Shown here piece after piece: positions 7,474 to 63,180 of a DNA stretch of 63,180 nucleotides. Position numbers and translations under genes: made by a program. The stretch lies in the NCBI GenBank assembly GCA_947304355.1, contig CAMZAX010000012.1, forward strand, positions 1 to 63,180. The letters are read 5' to 3'. The stretch's first letter is position 1, and each line of letters begins with the position of its first letter. The notes beneath the pieces are model-generated. The model searched no databases. It saw only the letters and a program-made list of their open reading frames with translations, and was not told the DNA's origin. Source of the DNA: an uncultured Selenomonadales bacterium. Lineage in GTDB: Bacteria; Bacillota; Negativicutes; Selenomonadales; Selenomonadaceae.

Positions 7474-10400
7474 ATGACTGTTGACGAACTGCTGAAAAGC
7501 TACGACGACTTTGCCATGACTGACGTTGAGAAGGGCGAACGCTTTGAACGACTTATGCGAAACTTTTTGCTGACGTATCCGGCTTGGCGCGGACAAATCG
7601 CCGAAGCGTGGCTTTGGAAAGATTTTCCCTTCCGTCACGACCTCGGCGGCAAAGATTTGGGCATTGACATCGTTGCCAAGACCGTTGACGGCGAATATTG
7701 GGCGGCACAGTGCAAGTTCTACGCCGACACCACGCCCATTACGAAAAAAGCCGTTGACTCGTTTGTATCGAACAGCGGACGCACCTTCGGCGGCGACAAA
7801 AAGTTTTCTCGGCGGCTTTGGATTTCGACAACCGATAATTTCACCGACAACGCCCGCGAAATGTGCAAAAATCAATCGCCCGCCGTCGAAATCATCAATT
7901 TGGAGTTCTTGCGGCGTCCTCAAGTCAACTGGATTCTGCTCGACAACGGTTTTGCTCGGCGCGAAGCTCGTATCATCAAAAGATTGCGCGACTATCAGTG
8001 GGAAGCTCTCTACAAGGCTCGCGCTCACTATCAAGCCAACGATCGCGGACGGCTTATCATGGCTTGCGGCACGGGTAAAACCTTCACCGCGCTGAAAATC
8101 GCCGAAGCCCTCGCGCCCGAAGGCTTGATTTTGTTTCTCGTGCCGTCAATCTCTTTGCTCAGTCAAACGCTCGAAGAATGGGCTGCCAATTCCGTCAAGC
8201 CGCTCAATGCCGTGTGCGTTTGCTCCGACGAAACCGCCGCGCAGGACACCGACGAAATTACCGACGTGCAACTGCCCTTCAAAGCGACGACCGACCCCGA
8301 CAAAATTGCCGCCGCTTTGACGCACCTGCTCGCCGACCGATTTAACGTCGTTTTTTCGACTTATCAATCGCTCGAACAAGTTGCAAAGGCTGAAACCGAA
8401 TTCGATTTGATTATTTGCGACGAGGCGCACAGGACGACGGGTTCATCGAAGGACGCCGCAACACAATTCACCGCCGTGCACGATAAAGACTTTATCAAGG
8501 CAAAACGACGCATGTACATGACCGCCACGCCCCGAATGTTCACTTCCGACGCAATAAAGAAGGCCGCCGACGCCGAAATCAACGTTTGGTCTATGGACGA
8601 CCCGAAAATTTACGGAAAAGAATTTTATCGCTTGAACTTCGGCGACGCCGTTCATCTCAAAATTTTGTCCGATTACAAGGTGCTCGTCCTCACGCTCAAC
8701 GAAAAAAAATCCGACGACAAGCACGCCGACGACGCAACCAAAATCGCCGGAACGATAAATGCACTCGCCAAGAAAATGACGCACATATCTCAAGGGCTCG
8801 CGACCGTCGACCCCGCGCCAATGCACACCGCCGTTGCCTTTTGCCCGACAATCCTCGACTCAAAACGAATCGCCGCGACTTTCGACGCCATTGCCGACAA
8901 AAAGCGCGACTTGCTTGACGTTCACACCAAACACGTCGACGGCTCGCAAAGCGGCAAAATTCGCAACGGACATCTTTCGTGGCTGAAAACGACGCCCGTT
9001 GACGGAAACGCCTGCCGAATCCTCACAAACGTCCGCTGCCTGTCAGAAGGTGTCGACGTGCCCGCCCTTGACGCCGTTATCTTCATGGCGTCAAAAAAAT
9101 CCAAGGTTGAAATCGTTCAAGCCGTCGGGCGCGTCATGCGCAAACCTCCCAAAGAAAGCAAGTACAAAAAAAATTACGGATACATCATCATTCCCGTCGT
9201 CGTCCCGCTCGAACAGAATCCCGAAGACGTTTTGGACAAAAGCAAGACTTACAACGTCATTTGGGAAGTCCTCAACGCCCTGCGCTCTCACGACGGGCGC
9301 ATCGACATTTTTATCGAAGACCTCAAGTTGCAACGCGCGCGCGGCGAAAAGCCCGCCAACAACGGCGACGCTCATATTATCATCGGCGGCGCGGAAGACG
9401 AAACCGAACTCGACGCACCATTTCAAGACACGCTCAATTTCGGCGAGTGGCAAGACTTCCTTTATGCACGCATGGTTGAACGCGTCGGCAATCGTCGTTA
9501 TTGGGAGCAGTGGGCTGCCGACATCGCGCAAATCGCGCAACGACACACCGACCGTATCAAAGAACTTATCGCCTGCGCGGGCGACGCTCAACGAGACTTT
9601 TACAACTTCGTTCACGACCTGCAACAAAATATCAATCCCGCCGTCACGCCCGAAGCCGCCGTCGAAATGTTGGCTCAGCATATCGTAAGCCGCCCCGTCT
9701 TCGACGCGCTCTTTGAAGATTATCCCTTCGTCAAGAATAATCCCGTATCAAAGGCGTTGGAAACAGTCCTTGCCGCCCTCGACACGCAGAACACCGACGA
9801 AGAAGCCGAACGCCTCCAACATTTTGCCGACTCCGTCCGCGAACGCTCCGAAATCATTCATACGGCGGCGGAAAGGCAACAAACCATTCACGAACTGTAC
9901 GAAAAATTTTTCCGTATCGCCGTACCGAAGACCGTCGACAAACTCGGAATCGTTTACACTCCCGTCGAAGTCGTCGATTTTATTTTGCGCTCCGTCGACG
10001 CCGTGTTGAAGAAAAATTTCGGGCGCGGGCTCTCCGATAAAAATGTTCACGTCCTCGACCCGTTCGCGGGCACAGGAACTTTTATCGTCCGGCTGATTCA
10101 AAGCGGCTTGATTAAGCCTCGCGACCTCAAGCGCAAATATCTGTACGAACTTCACGCCAACGAAATTGTCTTGCTCGCCTACTACTTTGCCGCCGTAAAT
10201 ATCGAAGACGTTTACACTGCCGCCGCCGACGCCAAGGATTACGTCCCATTCAACGGCGTGTGCTTCACCGACACCTTTCAGGCTGCCGAAAACGACACCA
10301 ACGCCAAGGGGCAGACCGACTTTGAACAGATGCGCGACACGCTCCGCGAAAACGCCGCACGCGTCAAAGATCAGCTCGCCACGCCAATTACGGTCATTGT

Positions 10401-12132
10401 AGGGAATCCGCCGTACTCCGTCGGGCAACGCTCCGCCAACGACAACGCCCAAAACGATTACTACCCGAAGCTTGAGACGCGCATTCAAAACACCTACGCC
10501 GCAAAGACCGACGCCACCAACAAGAACGCGCTTTACGACAGCTATATCAAGGCTTTTCGTTGGGCAAGCGACCGAATCAGCGGCGGCGGCGTCATCGGTT
10601 TCGTCACCAACGCCGGCTGGCTCGACGGCGCGGCAATGGACGGCTTGCGCAAATGTTTCGTCAACGACTTCAGCGAAATTTACGTTTTCAATCTGCGCGG
10701 CAACGCTCGCACTCAAGGCGAACAGCGTCAGCGCGAAAAGGGCAACGTCTTCGGCAGCGGCTCGCGGGCTCCCATTGCCGTCACGGTTTTGGTTAAGAAT
10801 CCCGACGCTCACGGCGACGCGAAAATTTTCTACCGCGACATCGGCGACTACCTCACTCGCGAACAAAAGCTTGACATCATTGCTCGCACGCCCGACGTAC
10901 TCTCCGACGACTTCAAGCCCCTCACTCCCAACGACAAGGCCGACTGGATTAATCAGCGCGGCGATGCCTTCGATTCGTTCATTCCTCTGCACGATAGTCA
11001 AAATCCATATATATGGATTTCGCACTTTCCAATTCCCAAATACGGGAATTTGTTCAATTTGCGTTCAAACGGGCTTCAAACCAACCGAGACGCGTGGATT
11101 TACAACTTTTCGCGCGAAAAACTCCTTGAAAACGTTCAAACGACCATTGAGTTCTATAATTCGCACGAATCGAACGAAATCGACCCGAAAAAGTTCGTTT
11201 GGACGAGTTCAGCCGTTCAAAATAAAAAACGCGGGCTTAAAATCGATTTTGACGCAAAAAAAATCGTCGAAAGCATGTATCGACCGTTTTGCAAGACAAA
11301 TTTTTATTATGGAGACGGTTTGATTCACCGACGCTATCAAATGTCGAAAATTTTTCCGACGGGGCGCGAAGAAAATCTTTTAATCTGTGTTAGCGGCGTT
11401 GGAAGTCAAAAAAATTTTTCTACTTTCATCGTTGATAAACTTCCCGACCTTGAATTAGTATCAAAATCGCAGTGTTTTCCGCTGTATTGGTACGAGGCGG
11501 CGGCGCAGGGCGAGTTATTCGGCGAAACTCTTCAGCGGCGCGACGGAATCAGCGATTTTATCTTGAATGAGGCGCGAAAACTCTACGGCAGCGTCAGCAA
11601 GGAAGATATTTTCTATTACGTGTACGGATTTTTGCATTTGCCGAGCTATCGGGCGCGTTTTGGTGCCGAGCTGAAAAAATCATTGCCGCGAATTATTTTG
11701 GTGGGCGACGCGGACAAATTTTGGACGTTGAGCCGCGCAGGCCGCGAGCTTGCCGAAATTCATCTGAATTACGAGCGGCAACCGGCACCGGACGGCGTGG
11801 AAGTTATCGGAAGCGGCGATTTTCGCGTAAAAAAAATGCGCCTGTCGAAAGACAAGACGACTTTGACATACAACCGCGACATTAAGATACGGAACATTCC
11901 GCCGCGCAGTTTTGAGTACGTGGTGAACGGACGGAGCCCGCTTGAGTGGATAATCGACCGCTACCAAGTGAAAACGGACAAAGCGAGCGGAATAATCAAT
12001 AATCCGAACGATTGGAGCCTTGAACACGACAATCCGCGCTACATTTTGGATTTGATATTGAGCAGCCTGACGGTGAGCTTGAAGACTTTGGATATTGTTG
12101 ACGGCTTGCCGAGCGTGGACTTTGGCGGCTGA
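7474..12132 (+). CDS. Type ISP restriction-modification enzyme (LlaBIII/LlaGI-like)
   Basis: One 1552-residue chain combines all activities. An Mrr-like PD-(D/E)xK nuclease is at about residues 1-150 (D65, Q79-x-K81 in AAQCKFY). A RecA-like translocase follows (ACGTGKT near 197, DEAH near 316, MTATPRM, then GVDVP and VQAVGRVMRKP). Next come a helical coupler and an N6-adenine methyltransferase (DPFAGTGTF near 860, NPPYS near 977). A C-terminal target-recognition domain ends the chain. Length and order match type ISP enzymes, which recognise an asymmetric site, methylate one strand and cut after head-to-head collision. It appears intact. The presumed recognition domain (about 11.0-11.5 kb) is more AT-rich than the rest, as expected where specificity segments are exchanged. 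The start follows GGAAAGGAAATG. Confidence 0.93.
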   Translation: MTVDELLKSYDDFAMTDVEKGERFERLMRNFLLTYPAWRGQIAEAWLWKDFPFRHDLGGKDLGIDIVAKTVDGEYWAAQCKFYADTTPITKKAVDSFVSNSGRTFGGDKKFSRRLWISTTDNFTDNAREMCKNQSPAVEIINLEFLRRPQVNWILLDNGFARREARIIKRLRDYQWEALYKARAHYQANDRGRLIMACGTGKTFTALKIAEALAPEGLILFLVPSISLLSQTLEEWAANSVKPLNAVCVCSDETAAQDTDEITDVQLPFKATTDPDKIAAALTHLLADRFNVVFSTYQSLEQVAKAETEFDLIICDEAHRTTGSSKDAATQFTAVHDKDFIKAKRRMYMTATPRMFTSDAIKKAADAEINVWSMDDPKIYGKEFYRLNFGDAVHLKILSDYKVLVLTLNEKKSDDKHADDATKIAGTINALAKKMTHISQGLATVDPAPMHTAVAFCPTILDSKRIAATFDAIADKKRDLLDVHTKHVDGSQSGKIRNGHLSWLKTTPVDGNACRILTNVRCLSEGVDVPALDAVIFMASKKSKVEIVQAVGRVMRKPPKESKYKKNYGYIIIPVVVPLEQNPEDVLDKSKTYNVIWEVLNALRSHDGRIDIFIEDLKLQRARGEKPANNGDAHIIIGGAEDETELDAPFQDTLNFGEWQDFLYARMVERVGNRRYWEQWAADIAQIAQRHTDRIKELIACAGDAQRDFYNFVHDLQQNINPAVTPEAAVEMLAQHIVSRPVFDALFEDYPFVKNNPVSKALETVLAALDTQNTDEEAERLQHFADSVRERSEIIHTAAERQQTIHELYEKFFRIAVPKTVDKLGIVYTPVEVVDFILRSVDAVLKKNFGRGLSDKNVHVLDPFAGTGTFIVRLIQSGLIKPRDLKRKYLYELHANEIVLLAYYFAAVNIEDVYTAAADAKDYVPFNGVCFTDTFQAAENDTNAKGQTDFEQMRDTLRENAARVKDQLATPITVIVGNPPYSVGQRSANDNAQNDYYPKLETRIQNTYAAKTDATNKNALYDSYIKAFRWASDRISGGGVIGFVTNAGWLDGAAMDGLRKCFVNDFSEIYVFNLRGNARTQGEQRQREKGNVFGSGSRAPIAVTVLVKNPDAHGDAKIFYRDIGDYLTREQKLDIIARTPDVLSDDFKPLTPNDKADWINQRGDAFDSFIPLHDSQNPYIWISHFPIPKYGNLFNLRSNGLQTNRDAWIYNFSREKLLENVQTTIEFYNSHESNEIDPKKFVWTSSAVQNKKRGLKIDFDAKKIVESMYRPFCKTNFYYGDGLIHRRYQMSKIFPTGREENLLICVSGVGSQKNFSTFIVDKLPDLELVSKSQCFPLYWYEAAAQGELFGETLQRRDGISDFILNEARKLYGSVSKEDIFYYVYGFLHLPSYRARFGAELKKSLPRIILVGDADKFWTLSRAGRELAEIHLNYERQPAPDGVEVIGSGDFRVKKMRLSKDKTTLTYNRDIKIRNIPPRSFEYVVNGRSPLEWIIDRYQVKTDKASGIINNPNDWSLEHDNPRYILDLILSSLTVSLKTLDIVDGLPSVDFGG

Positions 12133-12142
12133 AAAAATTTTC

Positions 12143-12171
12143 TTGCCAAAAGTTTGTCGGCGGCTTATAAT
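12143..12171 (+). promoter_or_regulatory. Promoter of the presumptive antitoxin RNA
   Basis: TTGCCA (12143-12148), a 17-nt spacer and consensus TATAAT (12166-12171) point rightward toward the terminator at 12221-12260. There is no gene of that orientation downstream. Confidence 0.65.
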
Positions 12172-12177
12172 ACGTGC

Positions 12178-12262
12178 GAACGATCTAAAGACAATTTTCT
12201 CATCGTTATCACAAAGCAAAAACCCCCGAGTAAGTCTGGTGGTACAGACCCTCGGGGGTTGC
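12178..12262 (+). ncRNA. Putative antisense antitoxin RNA (par/RNAII-like)
   Basis: This is predicted from a consensus promoter ending at 12171 and a terminator hairpin at 12221-12260, so the RNA would be about 85 nt. Its first 35 nt (12178-12212) are an imperfect copy of 12363-12399. The RNA is therefore complementary to the translation start of the convergent 34-codon peptide gene without being transcribed from it. It also shares the terminator stem with that mRNA. This is the RNA I/RNA II logic of the Enterococcus par (Fst) locus. Transcription is inferred, not shown. Confidence 0.55.
12221..12260. terminator. Shared terminator between convergent toxin and antitoxin transcripts
   Basis: A 10-bp GC-rich stem (AACCCCCGAG with CTCGGGGGTT) is extended by an inner GTCTG/CAGAC helix. 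Read on the minus strand it ends in a T run, so it best terminates the peptide mRNA. On the plus strand the T run is missing. Confidence 0.75.
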
Positions 12263-12285
12263 GCTATTTATTGCGCAGTTGCGGC

Positions 12286-12390
12286 TCAATCGTCGCTATC
12301 CTCGAAGAGATGCTTGAGCCAATCGTATATTGCGCGCGCTATGGTGCTCTCAACGATTCTCTGAACGAGCTTTCTAAAGATTTTTCTCAC
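12286..12390 (-). CDS. 34-residue amphipathic peptide, candidate type I toxin
   Basis: GTG 12390 follows AAAGGTGG; an in-frame GTG at 12399 is the alternative. The peptide starts MRKIFRKLVQRIV. Hydrophobic residues at 3-4 spacing (I4, L8, V9, I12, I17, I21, L25, L28) make an amphipathic helix. The N-terminal half is basic, and the end DWLKHLFEDSDD is acidic with a WL pair. The acidic tail recalls Fst; the rest does not match a family I know. It has its own consensus promoter (12445-12473), a roughly 45-nt leader and a shared terminator. The convergent antisense RNA would cover its start codon. No homology search was possible, so the toxin role is an inference from locus design. Confidence 0.6.
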   Translation of the reverse strand: MRKIFRKLVQRIVESTIARAIYDWLKHLFEDSDD

Positions 12391-12399
12391 CGTTATCAC
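12363..12399 (-). repeat. Direct repeat at the peptide start codon, partner of 12178-12212
   Basis: The two copies share GAACGA, then TCTAAAGA, then TTTT-CTCA-y-CGTTATCAC in the same order, with small gaps. One copy spans the peptide start; the other lies beyond the terminator at the 5' end of the convergent RNA. Such paired repeats are the recognition elements of par-type antisense systems. Confidence 0.7.
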
Positions 12400-12444
12400 C
12401 ACCTTTCCTGATCAGAGGGATCGGTGTCGGATAACGACGGCGGC

Positions 12445-12473
12445 ATTATACAGCACATAATAAAAATTTTCAA
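12445..12473 (-). promoter_or_regulatory. Promoter of the 34-residue peptide gene
   Basis: TTGAAA (12473-12468), a 17-nt spacer and consensus TATAAT (12450-12445). Confidence 0.8.
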
Positions 12474-12475
12474 CG

Positions 12476-12506
12476 AAAAAGCCCCGGCGACGAGTCGGGG
12501 CTTTTT
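12476..12506 (-). terminator. Terminator of sppA
   Basis: The stem AGCCCCG / CGGGGCT is flanked by A and T runs on both sides. It starts 6 nt after the sppA stop. Confidence 0.85.
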
Positions 12507-12511
12507 CGTTG

Positions 12512-13312
12512 TTAAAACCTTGGAAAATTATTCGGAAAGTCGAATTTAATCATGATTGGCGACGCCAGGCTTAAGATTCGTTGCAAAAAGCTTGGTTTAG
12601 GCGCGGAATCGGTGATTGTGAAATCTTTTTGGTCGCCGTGAAGAATTTCGGTGATTAAAAAGTTCAGCGCGTCGTCTTCGGTGCCGAGTTTGTCGATAAG
12701 ATTGTTTTCGAGCGCGGTGCGAGCGTCCAAAACTCTGCCGTCCGCCAATTCGTCGAGGTTAGCGGCGTTCGGTCGCGCGAGCCTGATGAAGTCGATGAAT
12801 TCGGCATGAGACTTCTTGACGAGCGTTTCAAGGTAAAGTTCTTCTTCGGGCGTCATTTCGCGGAAGGGGCTGCCCAAGTCTTTCATTTTGCCGGCCTTTA
12901 TGGTCTTGAAGGAGACGCCGAGCTTTTTTGACAGTTCGATATAGTTTCGCAAAAGCATAATGACGCCGATAGAGCCCGTCCAAGACATTGTGTTGGCGAA
13001 AATGTAATTGGAGGCGGCGGCAACCATGTACGCGCCCGAACAAGCACTGTCGCCAATCGAAACGACGACGGGCACGGTGTCGCGCAAGCTGAAAACCAAT
13101 TTCGCCAGCTCTTCACTGGTGGCAGCCGCGCCGCCGGGCGAATTTATTTTCAAGAGGACGCCTTTGTAATTGGACTTGTTTTTTTGTTTCAGTTCAAGCA
13201 ACGCAGTCTTCAACTTCTGAACGGAATTGTCACCGGCGAATTTTGACGCGTCGGAGGTTATTTCGCCGTTCAAGTAGAGTTTTAAAATTTTTTTGCCGGA
13301 GAAAATGCTCAT
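12512..13312 (-). CDS. sppA: Signal peptide peptidase SppA-like S49 protease
   Basis: The S49/ClpP-fold protease is marked by the nucleophile motif GDSACSGAYMVAAASN (Ser in the middle) and the general-base Lys in KAGKMKDLGSPFR. The LLKINSPGG oxyanion strand and TGSIGV are also present. I chose ATG 13312, giving 266 residues, because GCGGGG precedes it; the longer start at 13339 has no ribosome site. The bacterial short form normally has an N-terminal membrane anchor. None is obvious here, so the enzyme may be soluble or peripheral. It has its own promoter, divergent from scpB, and a strong terminator. Confidence 0.85.
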   Translation of the reverse strand: MSIFSGKKILKLYLNGEITSDASKFAGDNSVQKLKTALLELKQKNKSNYKGVLLKINSPGGAAATSEELAKLVFSLRDTVPVVVSIGDSACSGAYMVAAASNYIFANTMSWTGSIGVIMLLRNYIELSKKLGVSFKTIKAGKMKDLGSPFREMTPEEELYLETLVKKSHAEFIDFIRLARPNAANLDELADGRVLDARTALENNLIDKLGTEDDALNFLITEILHGDQKDFTITDSAPKPSFLQRILSLASPIMIKFDFPNNFPRF

Positions 13313-13360
13313 GTGGTTACCCCGCCTTAAAGAATTCATTTAAATAACAATGGCGCTGGC

Positions 13361-47468: not shown

Positions 47469-47913
47469 GTTGACAGGCAGGAGAGGCAGTCGCGGGGGAT
47501 TCGTCCCACGAGGAAAGTCCGGACTCCGCAGAGCAGCGTGCCGGGTAACGCCCGGTGAGAGTAATCTTAAAGACAGTGTCACAGAAAAGCAAACCGCCGT
47601 TCATTAGTTAGGAGTTAGGAGGTAGAAGTTAGGATTTAGGAGTTAGGAATTAAAGATACCGACAATCAACTCCTAACTCCTACATCCCAACTCCTAACTG
47701 TAAGAACGGTAAGGATGAAAAGGCAGGGTAAGAGCCTACCGACGGACGGGTAACCGTTCGGGCTGATAAACCTCACGCGGAGCAAGCCTAAATAGGAAAG
47801 GGTTGAGGTTGCTCGCTGACCTTTCGGGTAAGGTGCTTCGACTTGAGCGGCGACGTTCAAGCAAGATAAATGATTGCCACTAACAGAATCCGGCTTATTG
47901 ACTGCCTGCCAAC
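47469..47913 (+). ncRNA. rnpB: RNase P RNA (type A) with a heptad-repeat P12
   Basis: The universally conserved pieces are in order: GAGGAAAGTCCGGACTCC, GTGCCGGGTAACGCC, ACAGAAAAGCAAACCGCCG, GGTAAGGATGAAA, GGTAAGAGCC-type AGGGTAAGAGCCTACCG, AAACC-CACGCGGAGCAAGCC, AAATAGG and AGAATCCGGCTTATTG. P1 pairs TTGACAGGCAG (47470-47480) with CTGCCTGCCAA (47902-47912). The order matches the E. coli-like type A rather than the Bacillus type B. In place of the usual short P12 helix there are about 95 nt (47606-47699) of inverted heptad repeats, so the RNA is about 445 nt. The catalytic core is intact, so it is probably functional. Confidence 0.96.
47606..47699 (+). repeat. Heptad repeat (AGTTAGG) inverted pair inside rnpB P12
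   Basis: The left arm (47606-47653) has units AGTTAGG, AGGTAGA and ATTTAGG. The right arm (47668-47699) has ACTCCTA and CATCCCA units. It lies exactly between CCGCCGTTC and GAACGG of the RNase P core, so it extends the P12 stem. The left arm is identical for 27 nt to the array just after rnpB. Confidence 0.92.
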
Positions 47914-62732: not shown

Positions 62733-62819
62733 TGGTGCGGTTGACGAGACTTGAACTCATACGCCCTTGCGAGCACTACCCCCTCAAAGTAGCGTGTCTG
62801 CCAGTTCCACCACAACCGC
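62733..62819 (-). tRNA. tRNA-Leu (anticodon GAG), copy 1
   Basis: An 87-nt class II tRNA with acceptor GCGGTTG / CAACCGC, CCA encoded and a long variable arm. The anticodon loop TTGAGGG gives GAG. Confidence 0.93.
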
Positions 62820-62825
62820 GTATTG

Positions 62826-62912
62826 TGGTGCGGTCGATGAGACTTGAACTCATACCCTCTTTCGAGGACTGCCCCCTCAAAGCAGCGCGTCTGCCTATTC
62901 CGCCACGACCGC
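62826..62912 (-). tRNA. tRNA-Leu (anticodon GAG), copy 2
   Basis: An 87-nt class II tRNA with acceptor GCGGTCG / CGACCGC and CCA encoded; loop TTGAGGG. It differs from copy 1 at several stem positions. Confidence 0.93.
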
Positions 62913-62928
62913 ATATTTAGTTTTGAAT

Positions 62929-63014
62929 TGGTGCGGCAGAGAGGACTTGAACCTCCACGGGGTCGCCCCCACCAGCGCCTGAAGCTGGCGCGTCTGCCAT
63001 TCCGCCACTGCCGC
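62929..63014 (-). tRNA. tRNA-Leu (anticodon CAG)
   Basis: A class II tRNA with acceptor GCGGCAG / CTGCCGC and CCA encoded; anticodon arm CCAGC-TTCAGGC-GCTGG gives CAG. Confidence 0.93.
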
Positions 63015-63017
63015 ACA

Positions 63018-63103
63018 TGCCGAGGACCGGAATCGAACCGGTACGAGTTTTTACACTCGCAGGATTTTAAGTCCCGTGCGTCTGCCAGTTCCGCCACCCC
63101 GGC
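63018..63103 (-). tRNA. tRNA-Leu (anticodon TAA)
   Basis: A class II tRNA with acceptor GCCGGGG / CCTCGGC and discriminator A; loop CTTAAAA gives TAA. The CCA end is not encoded, unlike its neighbours. Confidence 0.92.
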
Positions 63104-63106
63104 GAG

Positions 63107-63180
<74 letters not shown>

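Follow-up and report, generated by a model that had tools for sequence, protein, structure and literature searches.

A putative par/Fst-like type I toxin-antitoxin module behind a Type ISP restriction-modification gene of an uncultured Selenomonadales bacterium

The question of why type I toxin-antitoxin loci persist on chromosomes is still open, and plasmid stabilisation is, in the available text of PMC7472228, the one function of a par-family member that has been verified. The question is raised here by a short locus in a 63,180-nt stretch of DNA (the window) from a rumen bacterium whose genus is most likely Quinella. An earlier note had read this locus as a toxin-antitoxin module on the plan of par, with a peptide that might represent a new toxin class. 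Our analysis suggests that the locus is probably a par/Fst-like type I module which is coupled, in both position and orientation, to a restriction-modification gene. The par-like plan of the earlier reading stands, but the reading had overlooked the 3' end of this gene, which abuts the module and does so commonly among relatives. The close junction with restriction genes offers a concrete, testable function, namely the guarding of a defence gene.

Layout of the locus and its relatives

The features of the locus are listed in Table 1. Both convergent promoters with 17-nt spacers that had been proposed were recovered, each with a score of 11/12, and the surrounding 1.7-kb region contains six promoter-like sites compared with 1.0 (sd 1.1) in shuffled sequence. 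The 34-codon frame with its ribosome site was likewise found as described. Read on the minus strand, the putative toxin RNA begins with GTCGTTATCCGACACC and runs through AAAGGTGGTGAT, the GTG codon, the frame and the stem-loop (12260-12221) into a T-run. Beyond the stem-loop the start region recurs (GTGATAACGATGAGAAAATTGTCTTTAGA), and the plus RNA carries this second copy in the opposite sense. The two copies are 187 nt apart and share an 18-nt core in which 17 of 18 positions are identical; with one gap the repeat spans 27-29 nt (12399-12373 and 12212-12184), and the predicted duplex extends further. Its former description as an imperfect 35-nt direct repeat is fair, and its copies do lie over the start codon and in the 5' part of the opposing transcript. 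The GC-rich terminator placed between the promoters was only partly borne out: the stem is present and co-varies, but it is bulged, for which reason a simple hairpin scan missed it, and its T-run is found on the toxin strand only. Because the plus-strand side of the stem is without a clear T-run, the 3' end of the antitoxin is uncertain. The fold of 12178-12266 has a z of -5.8.

Table 1. Predicted and annotated features of the module and its flanking genes in the window
Feature	Position	Strand	Remarks
Type ISP (single-polypeptide) restriction-modification gene	7474..12132	+	Pfam Type_ISP_C 9.9e-107, ISP_coupler, Mrr_cat_2, ResIII; PADLOC REase_MTase_IIG, E printed as 0
Predicted antitoxin promoter, TTGCCA-17-TATAAT	12143..12171	+	Consensus score 11/12; counterpart site in relatives; predicted start ~12178
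Predicted antitoxin RNA, ~85 nt, 3' end inferred	12178..12262	+	
Second copy (DRb) of the start-region repeat	12184..12212	-	Complement lies within the antitoxin 5' part
Stem-loop between both genes, predicted terminator of the toxin RNA	12221..12260	.	Minus-strand T-run; co-variation in 32 relatives
Small conserved GCGC hairpin adjoining the terminator	12260..12277	.	3/5 pairs with changes on both sides
Presumed toxin frame MRKIFRKLVQRIVESTIARAIYDWLKHLFEDSDD, 34 codons	12286..12390	-	GTG start at 12390
First repeat copy (DRa), over the start codon	12373..12399	-	
Strong ribosome site AAAGGTGGTGAT	12395..12406	-	
Leader motif GTCGTTATCCGAC of the toxin-RNA 5' end	12426..12438	-	With the following bases, predicted to pair with the ribosome-site region
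Predicted toxin promoter, TTGAAA-17-TATAAT	12445..12473	-	11/12; also in relatives; predicted start 12438
Inverted repeat 3' of the S49 peptidase gene, its likely terminator	12471..12511	-	16-nt perfect arms; overlaps the toxin -35
S49 peptidase gene, toxin-side neighbour	12512..13339	-	Pfam Peptidase_S49 2.1e-39

In 50 other 1.2-kb tiles of the window the layout detector gave no match on either strand. Rfam gave nothing at gathering score within the module; its sub-threshold matches are nearly all centred on the S49 terminator. Elsewhere in the window are an RNase P RNA (47474-47912) and, at the window end, a row of five tRNA genes (62736-63180).

A search for the layout in relatives, as the earlier note had advised, found frame and repeats conserved in 44 units. 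Of these, 32 have A1 (window-type) peptides; the other 12, which were detected with the Fst and Ldr models, have hydrophobic ones, and both kinds have the same plan. The A1 profile was made from the 32 intact peptides (26 of a charged core and six hydrophobic intermediates); before alignment a spurious frame in L050 was dropped, and in four cases the start was shifted to an upstream ATG. The 44 do not include units that are broken or incomplete, for example L059, L062, L063, L066, L068-L073, L080 and L082, and the row G069:C417:7110 was left out. The toxin promoter scores at least 9/12 in 40 of the 44 units (mean best score in shuffles 6.9) and the antitoxin promoter does so in 32 of the 44 (shuffles 7.1). 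An antitoxin promoter is lacking in 3 of 32 units. Of the 32 A1 units, 26 have leaders of 44-48 nt, and in the 31 scored A1 units, two of them with a poor site only, the antitoxin starts 31-60 nt past the terminator.

At E<=0.01, 27 of 189 family genomes gave DNA relatives, all in the window's genus and several of them weak. At the same threshold the A1 profile matched 31 of 380 class genomes; 29 of these belong to the genus, which counts 66 genomes, and a few are weak; the two matches outside the genus are both weak. The window's own genome was the sole match to the profile in a phylum sample of 338 genomes. A pattern scan of named contigs returned seven stretches, assigned to Selenomonadaceae, Selenomonadales or Quinella, and five of these came from sheep or goat gut. 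Apart from one full match, which is the locus itself, its own genome gave 39 short matches and no second copy was recognised; the best of the short matches (L002) was rejected as such a copy, its surroundings being by eye other coding sequence. Searches of phage and plasmid records with the window peptide gave 25 phage and 2 plasmid matches, all with E of 3 or more and none convincing, while plasmid records held no match to one hydrophobic relative and viral contigs none to two exact patterns. A word search of the Quinella genome paper (PMC9585023) found neither 'toxin' nor 'antisense', and our literature search found no paper that joins Quinella with toxin-antitoxin systems.

In-frame stops were observed in the copies G050:C23 and G108:C3. 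At L059 a group II intron (299-383; Rfam RF00029, 56.5 bits) ends directly before the toxin codons, so the toxin start seems to be interrupted by the intron. L054, L056 and L057 carry fragments of a toxin 3' end and terminator behind a unit with no recognisable antitoxin promoter, a pattern that suggests either partial duplication or loss. L137 (138-889) has three hydrophobic Fst/Ldr-like units in tandem, every one of them with a repeat copy of its own. In L167 an extra hydrophobic unit (MLEGLTQFGFDVLAIVVGGLILDYIINKRR), likewise with a start-region repeat of its own, was seen by eye between the A1-type unit and the S49 gene. A short frame in L246 at 13368 (MATREENLKKINEELEKMSDEELEKVAGG...) has a start region that recurs within 230 nt, and we take it to resemble double-glycine leader peptides.

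Predicted antisense pairing and RNA folds

The plus RNA had been proposed to pair with the toxin start, and prediction of the duplex agrees with this: the toxin 5' region and the plus RNA of the window are predicted to pair with -37.8 kcal/mol. Across units the predicted duplex energy is -34.8 kcal/mol for own pairs and -18.4 kcal/mol for cross pairs, with the own pair strongest for 29 of 40 units. The own-unit copy of the start-region repeat was also the best match in 39 of the 44 units (four of these tied). When the start regions of all units were compared with the post-terminator zones, the own mean match score of 15.0 (against 6.8) was reached in 0 of 10000 permutations, a result which is overstated because units of common ancestry share both repeat copies. 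The comparison within arrays is freer of this bias, and within five arrays the toxin start is predicted to pair best with its own antitoxin in 14 of 14 units. On these predictions the arrays appear to be natural sets of antisense pairs, apparently without cross-reaction.

Of 29 toxin leaders, 21 contain the motif GTCGTTRTCCGAC. For the ribosome site the predicted pairing probability averages 0.81 over 38 units, a figure that is without a shuffle control. By eye, a change in the ribosome site is accompanied by one in the leader base opposite it in L056 (TCC/GGA) and in the window and L053 (ACC/GGT); L049 at 3217 is an exception. In the terminator stem and the GCGC hairpin taken together, 10 of 19 pairs have changes on both sides (0/500 shuffles), and the count of further pair types in these two structures is not significant (122/500 shuffles). 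A second repeat pair like DRa/DRb was seen only by eye, in the hydrophobic set.

The absence of any antisense RNA was also considered, with the second repeat taken as a decayed duplicate of the toxin start. L054, L056 and L057, which have only fragments downstream, would suit such an origin. This reading is nevertheless very unlikely, as the repeat copies co-vary per unit and an opposite-strand promoter is found at a near-fixed distance. The conserved layout, the co-varying repeats, the predicted sequestration of the ribosome site and the own-pair specificity in arrays together uphold the par plan, and therefore the module would be expected to work like par/Fst type I systems.

From these features we infer that both RNAs are produced. 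The minus strand would give a toxin mRNA of ~220 nt whose 5' end folds back over the ribosome site, and the plus strand would give an antisense RNA of ~85 nt whose 5' part is complementary, through the direct repeat, to the ribosome site and the start codon. The antisense RNA would also share the terminator stem and would block translation of the toxin. The peptide itself would be toxic and, as an amphipathic helix, would probably act at the membrane.

Position behind restriction genes

The antitoxin promoter of the window begins 10 nt past the stop of the Type ISP gene. This leaves no room for a terminator, so read-through is to be expected: Type ISP transcripts would run on through the antitoxin, and expression of the restriction gene may feed the antitoxin. 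If the restriction gene were lost or silenced, the antitoxin would fall and the peptide would be freed, and the pair would therefore be an addiction guard.

With the window's restriction enzyme as query, the 3' end of a restriction gene was found beside a module or a remnant in 16 further loci, mostly in direct contact and within ~0.4 kb; the restriction enzyme in this position is MmeI-like in L050 and L066. So as not to count only loci fetched through the module, Type ISP C-terminal matches were sampled in all 66 genomes of the genus. This gave 60 matches in 41 genomes; 52 of them reach the gene end and 51 were examined (66.8 kb in all). A module, defined as an opposite-strand short frame with ribosome site together with a start-region repeat and a hairpin, was found behind 19 of these 51 ends, with the repeat at most 120 nt from the stop in 14 of the 19, and no module was detected behind the other 32. 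The 19 exclude L181, with three units but no hairpin by the test used, as well as the remnants in L059, L062, L063 and L072; in L176 the detector reports an overlapping second frame. In the opposite orientation none of the 51 ends has a module. Outside the genus the count is 0 of 6 Type ISP ends, one of which (L279) is poorly located. For background, 40 tiles of 20 kb (800 kb of other Quinella sequence) gave nine matches, two of them with a hairpin, and resampled tiles gave one match and none with a hairpin; this background may be underestimated because the tiles were hand-chosen and lie mostly on contigs with earlier matches, though away from them.

The junction itself is tight. In 19 of 27 scored units the antitoxin -35 lies roughly -14 to +10 nt from the stop of the host gene. 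The distance is 312-409 nt in six units, which are inner array units or L056, where the antitoxin side is disturbed, and 90 nt in L065; L079 was mis-scored through a longer frame, and no gene end lay within range of another four units. Behind MmeI-like restriction genes a module was found in 4 of 30 downstream regions and in none in the other orientation, a link that is weaker and less well sampled because the 30 were drawn from more than 150 matches in the genus. One genome (G068) has 18 matches to the MmeI C-terminal domain, compared with 0 to 11 in each of the other 65.

Toxin-side neighbours, among those scanned, are diverse. The S49 gene was tried as a constant partner and set aside, since homologues occur in only 12 of the 66 genomes. 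The module lies directly behind it in the window, L164 and L169 and farther away in L162 and L167; the S49 loci L161, L163, L165, L166, L168 and L170 have other sequence at that place. In L055 (2-2392) a gene for a dynamin-like GTPase (Pfam Dynamin_N; PADLOC LeoBC 1.3e-11) lies on the toxin side of the module.

The same position could arise in another way, with the type I mechanism unchanged: the module may be a selfish element that favours gene 3' ends, in which case its link with restriction genes would come from shared mobile islands and no guard role would be involved. Equally close junctions are found for the six intermediates, which sit behind ClpB (an inner unit), NMT1-like binding-protein, POR, Fe-ADH and HlyD genes, and thus a general preference for gene ends fits as well as a restriction guard does. 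Tandem expansion of units is also as expected of such an element, and six of the 19 modules behind Type ISP genes carry other toxin classes only (for example MDILFDILKSVGAGVIANLITPHVRKWLDKLRKNLR, MVSILGSLAVGVVASIIGNYIYDRWLKK and MDILILLGVTAVGGAIGTVIGGLILDYIRNRTK). The three units in L181 likewise belong to another toxin class (such as MSLKKFLEAVGASVVGYYVCKAVDYVMTLFF) and lie behind a Type ISP gene. Against such an element stand the frequency at Type ISP ends, 19 of 51 against two modules in 800 kb of tiles, and the difference between peptides, with 21 of the 26 charged core peptides linked to restriction genes against none of the six intermediates (Fisher 0.0005, the units of an array not being independent). 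We regard a selfish element as a serious possibility.

Guarding of the restriction gene by the module is put forward here as a tentative proposal. In its widest form it would state that the 3' untranslated part of restriction mRNAs in Quinella is itself the RNA antitoxin of an Fst-like module. Single-polypeptide restriction genes, of Type ISP and in some cases MmeI-like, would then be followed by antisense-controlled peptide toxins, alone or in arrays, which are mutually orthogonal and fall into several classes, a charged amphipathic one among them; these toxins would arrest or kill cells that lose or silence the restriction gene. This form, too, is possible and on the doubtful side. A literature search for earlier accounts of type I systems joined to restriction genes, from which subscription papers were mostly absent, returned SymE/SymR, CreTA and general reviews but not the present arrangement, as far as the available texts go.

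The peptide and known systems

The window peptide was found to be charged and amphipathic (moment 0.63) with an acidic tail, as had been stated before. Its best 17-residue hydropathy mean is 0.39, compared with means of 1.10 for the 26 core peptides, 2.11 for the intermediates and 2.05 for the hydrophobic set. It has no hydrophobic helix by the Fst/Ldr criterion, no P/D/S/TXXXG motif (it contains no glycine) and no Pfam match, PF13955 and PF13940 included. A tryptophan is present before the charged C-terminus (YDWLK, followed by the acidic tail), with V in some relatives. PDB gave three matches only, with E 0.38 or worse, and PHROGs and NCBIfam gave weak, inconsistent matches only.

On these properties the peptide departs from Fst/Ldr as the label of a new toxin class would have it, but the intermediates appear to link it to a Fst/Ldr-like set. 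Hydrophobic peptides occur in the same genus, for example MVTTFFVTVAADVVAGVILYFVCKWLSRRFR, and seven of the nine scanned match Fst_toxin or Ldr_toxin, all below the cut-off. Ldr_toxin was also matched by two of the 32 A1 members (best E 0.0019, 18.7 bits against a curated cut-off of 27). When the A1 profile was compared with the hydrophobic set by hhalign, the probability was 78.8% (E 1.7e-5 for this single comparison; 0/200 column shuffles). Without the six intermediates the value is 55.9% and the intermediates alone give 93.8%; against LdrA alone the A1 profile gives 7.3%. As judged from these alignments, the intermediates appear to join the window peptide to the hydrophobic Fst/Ldr-like peptides of its genus, and the A1 peptides likely share descent with Fst/Ldr. 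Amphipathicity by itself is not new, TisB being one known example of an amphipathic type I toxin. How the character of a membrane toxin changes could be learned from these peptides, which form a graded series from hydrophobic to amphipathic.

Strong amphipathicity would also suit a regulated small protein or an antimicrobial-like peptide that is harmless to its own cell, with the antisense RNA tuning its synthesis. One of the 32 members weakly matches a leaderless bacteriocin model (E 0.11), and an HlyD-type membrane-fusion protein neighbours one unit (L075). Among the neighbours scanned, which are part of all neighbours, no secretion or immunity gene recurs, and both the layout, which is that of toxin loci, and the apparent link to Fst/Ldr-like peptides argue against such a role. 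We consider it unlikely and retain the reading of the peptide as a putative type I toxin.

The closest resemblance is to par of plasmid pAD1 (Fst, RNA I/RNA II) and the chromosomal par-like loci. As described in the available text of PMC7472228, these have in common with the module convergent promoters (here at consensus sites), a shared stem-loop, a toxin RNA of ~220-230 nt (here predicted), repeats crossed in opposite directions and a ribosome-site stem-loop, which is predicted here. A short peptide with W before a charged tail (V in some, as in Fst of pAD1) is also common to both (PMC7472228, same text). Unlike Fst, the window peptide is amphipathic with a cationic N-terminal part and is without PXXXG. 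The module differs from par in having one repeat over the start instead of both DRa and DRb, in abutting a restriction gene, in its unclear antitoxin terminator and in its presence, in the searches made, in a single genus bar two weak matches.

Ldr/Rdl of E. coli shares tandem copies with the module, and a weak profile link to it is given by the two Ldr_toxin matches; in E. coli K-12, unlike here, rdlA is annotated upstream of the ldrA frame and is not convergent beyond a shared terminator. The layout of TisB/IstR-1 differs from that of the module. In TisB, a membrane toxin of 29 residues from the E. coli TisB/IstR-1 system, charged and polar residues are functional (available text of PMC11449926). 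RNA-controlled toxins have also been described beside defence loci. SymE of SymE/SymR is found with restriction-modification operons (PMC1891008, PMC12707154, in the parts available), and CreTA guards CRISPR-Cas and is described as an addiction guard in the available text of PMC12737573. According to the same text CreA acts through Cascade and not, as proposed here, by antisense pairing at the start codon (PMC12737573). As far as these texts describe them, SymE/SymR and CreTA have toxins of other kinds, and share with the proposed module an RNA-controlled toxin beside a defence locus.
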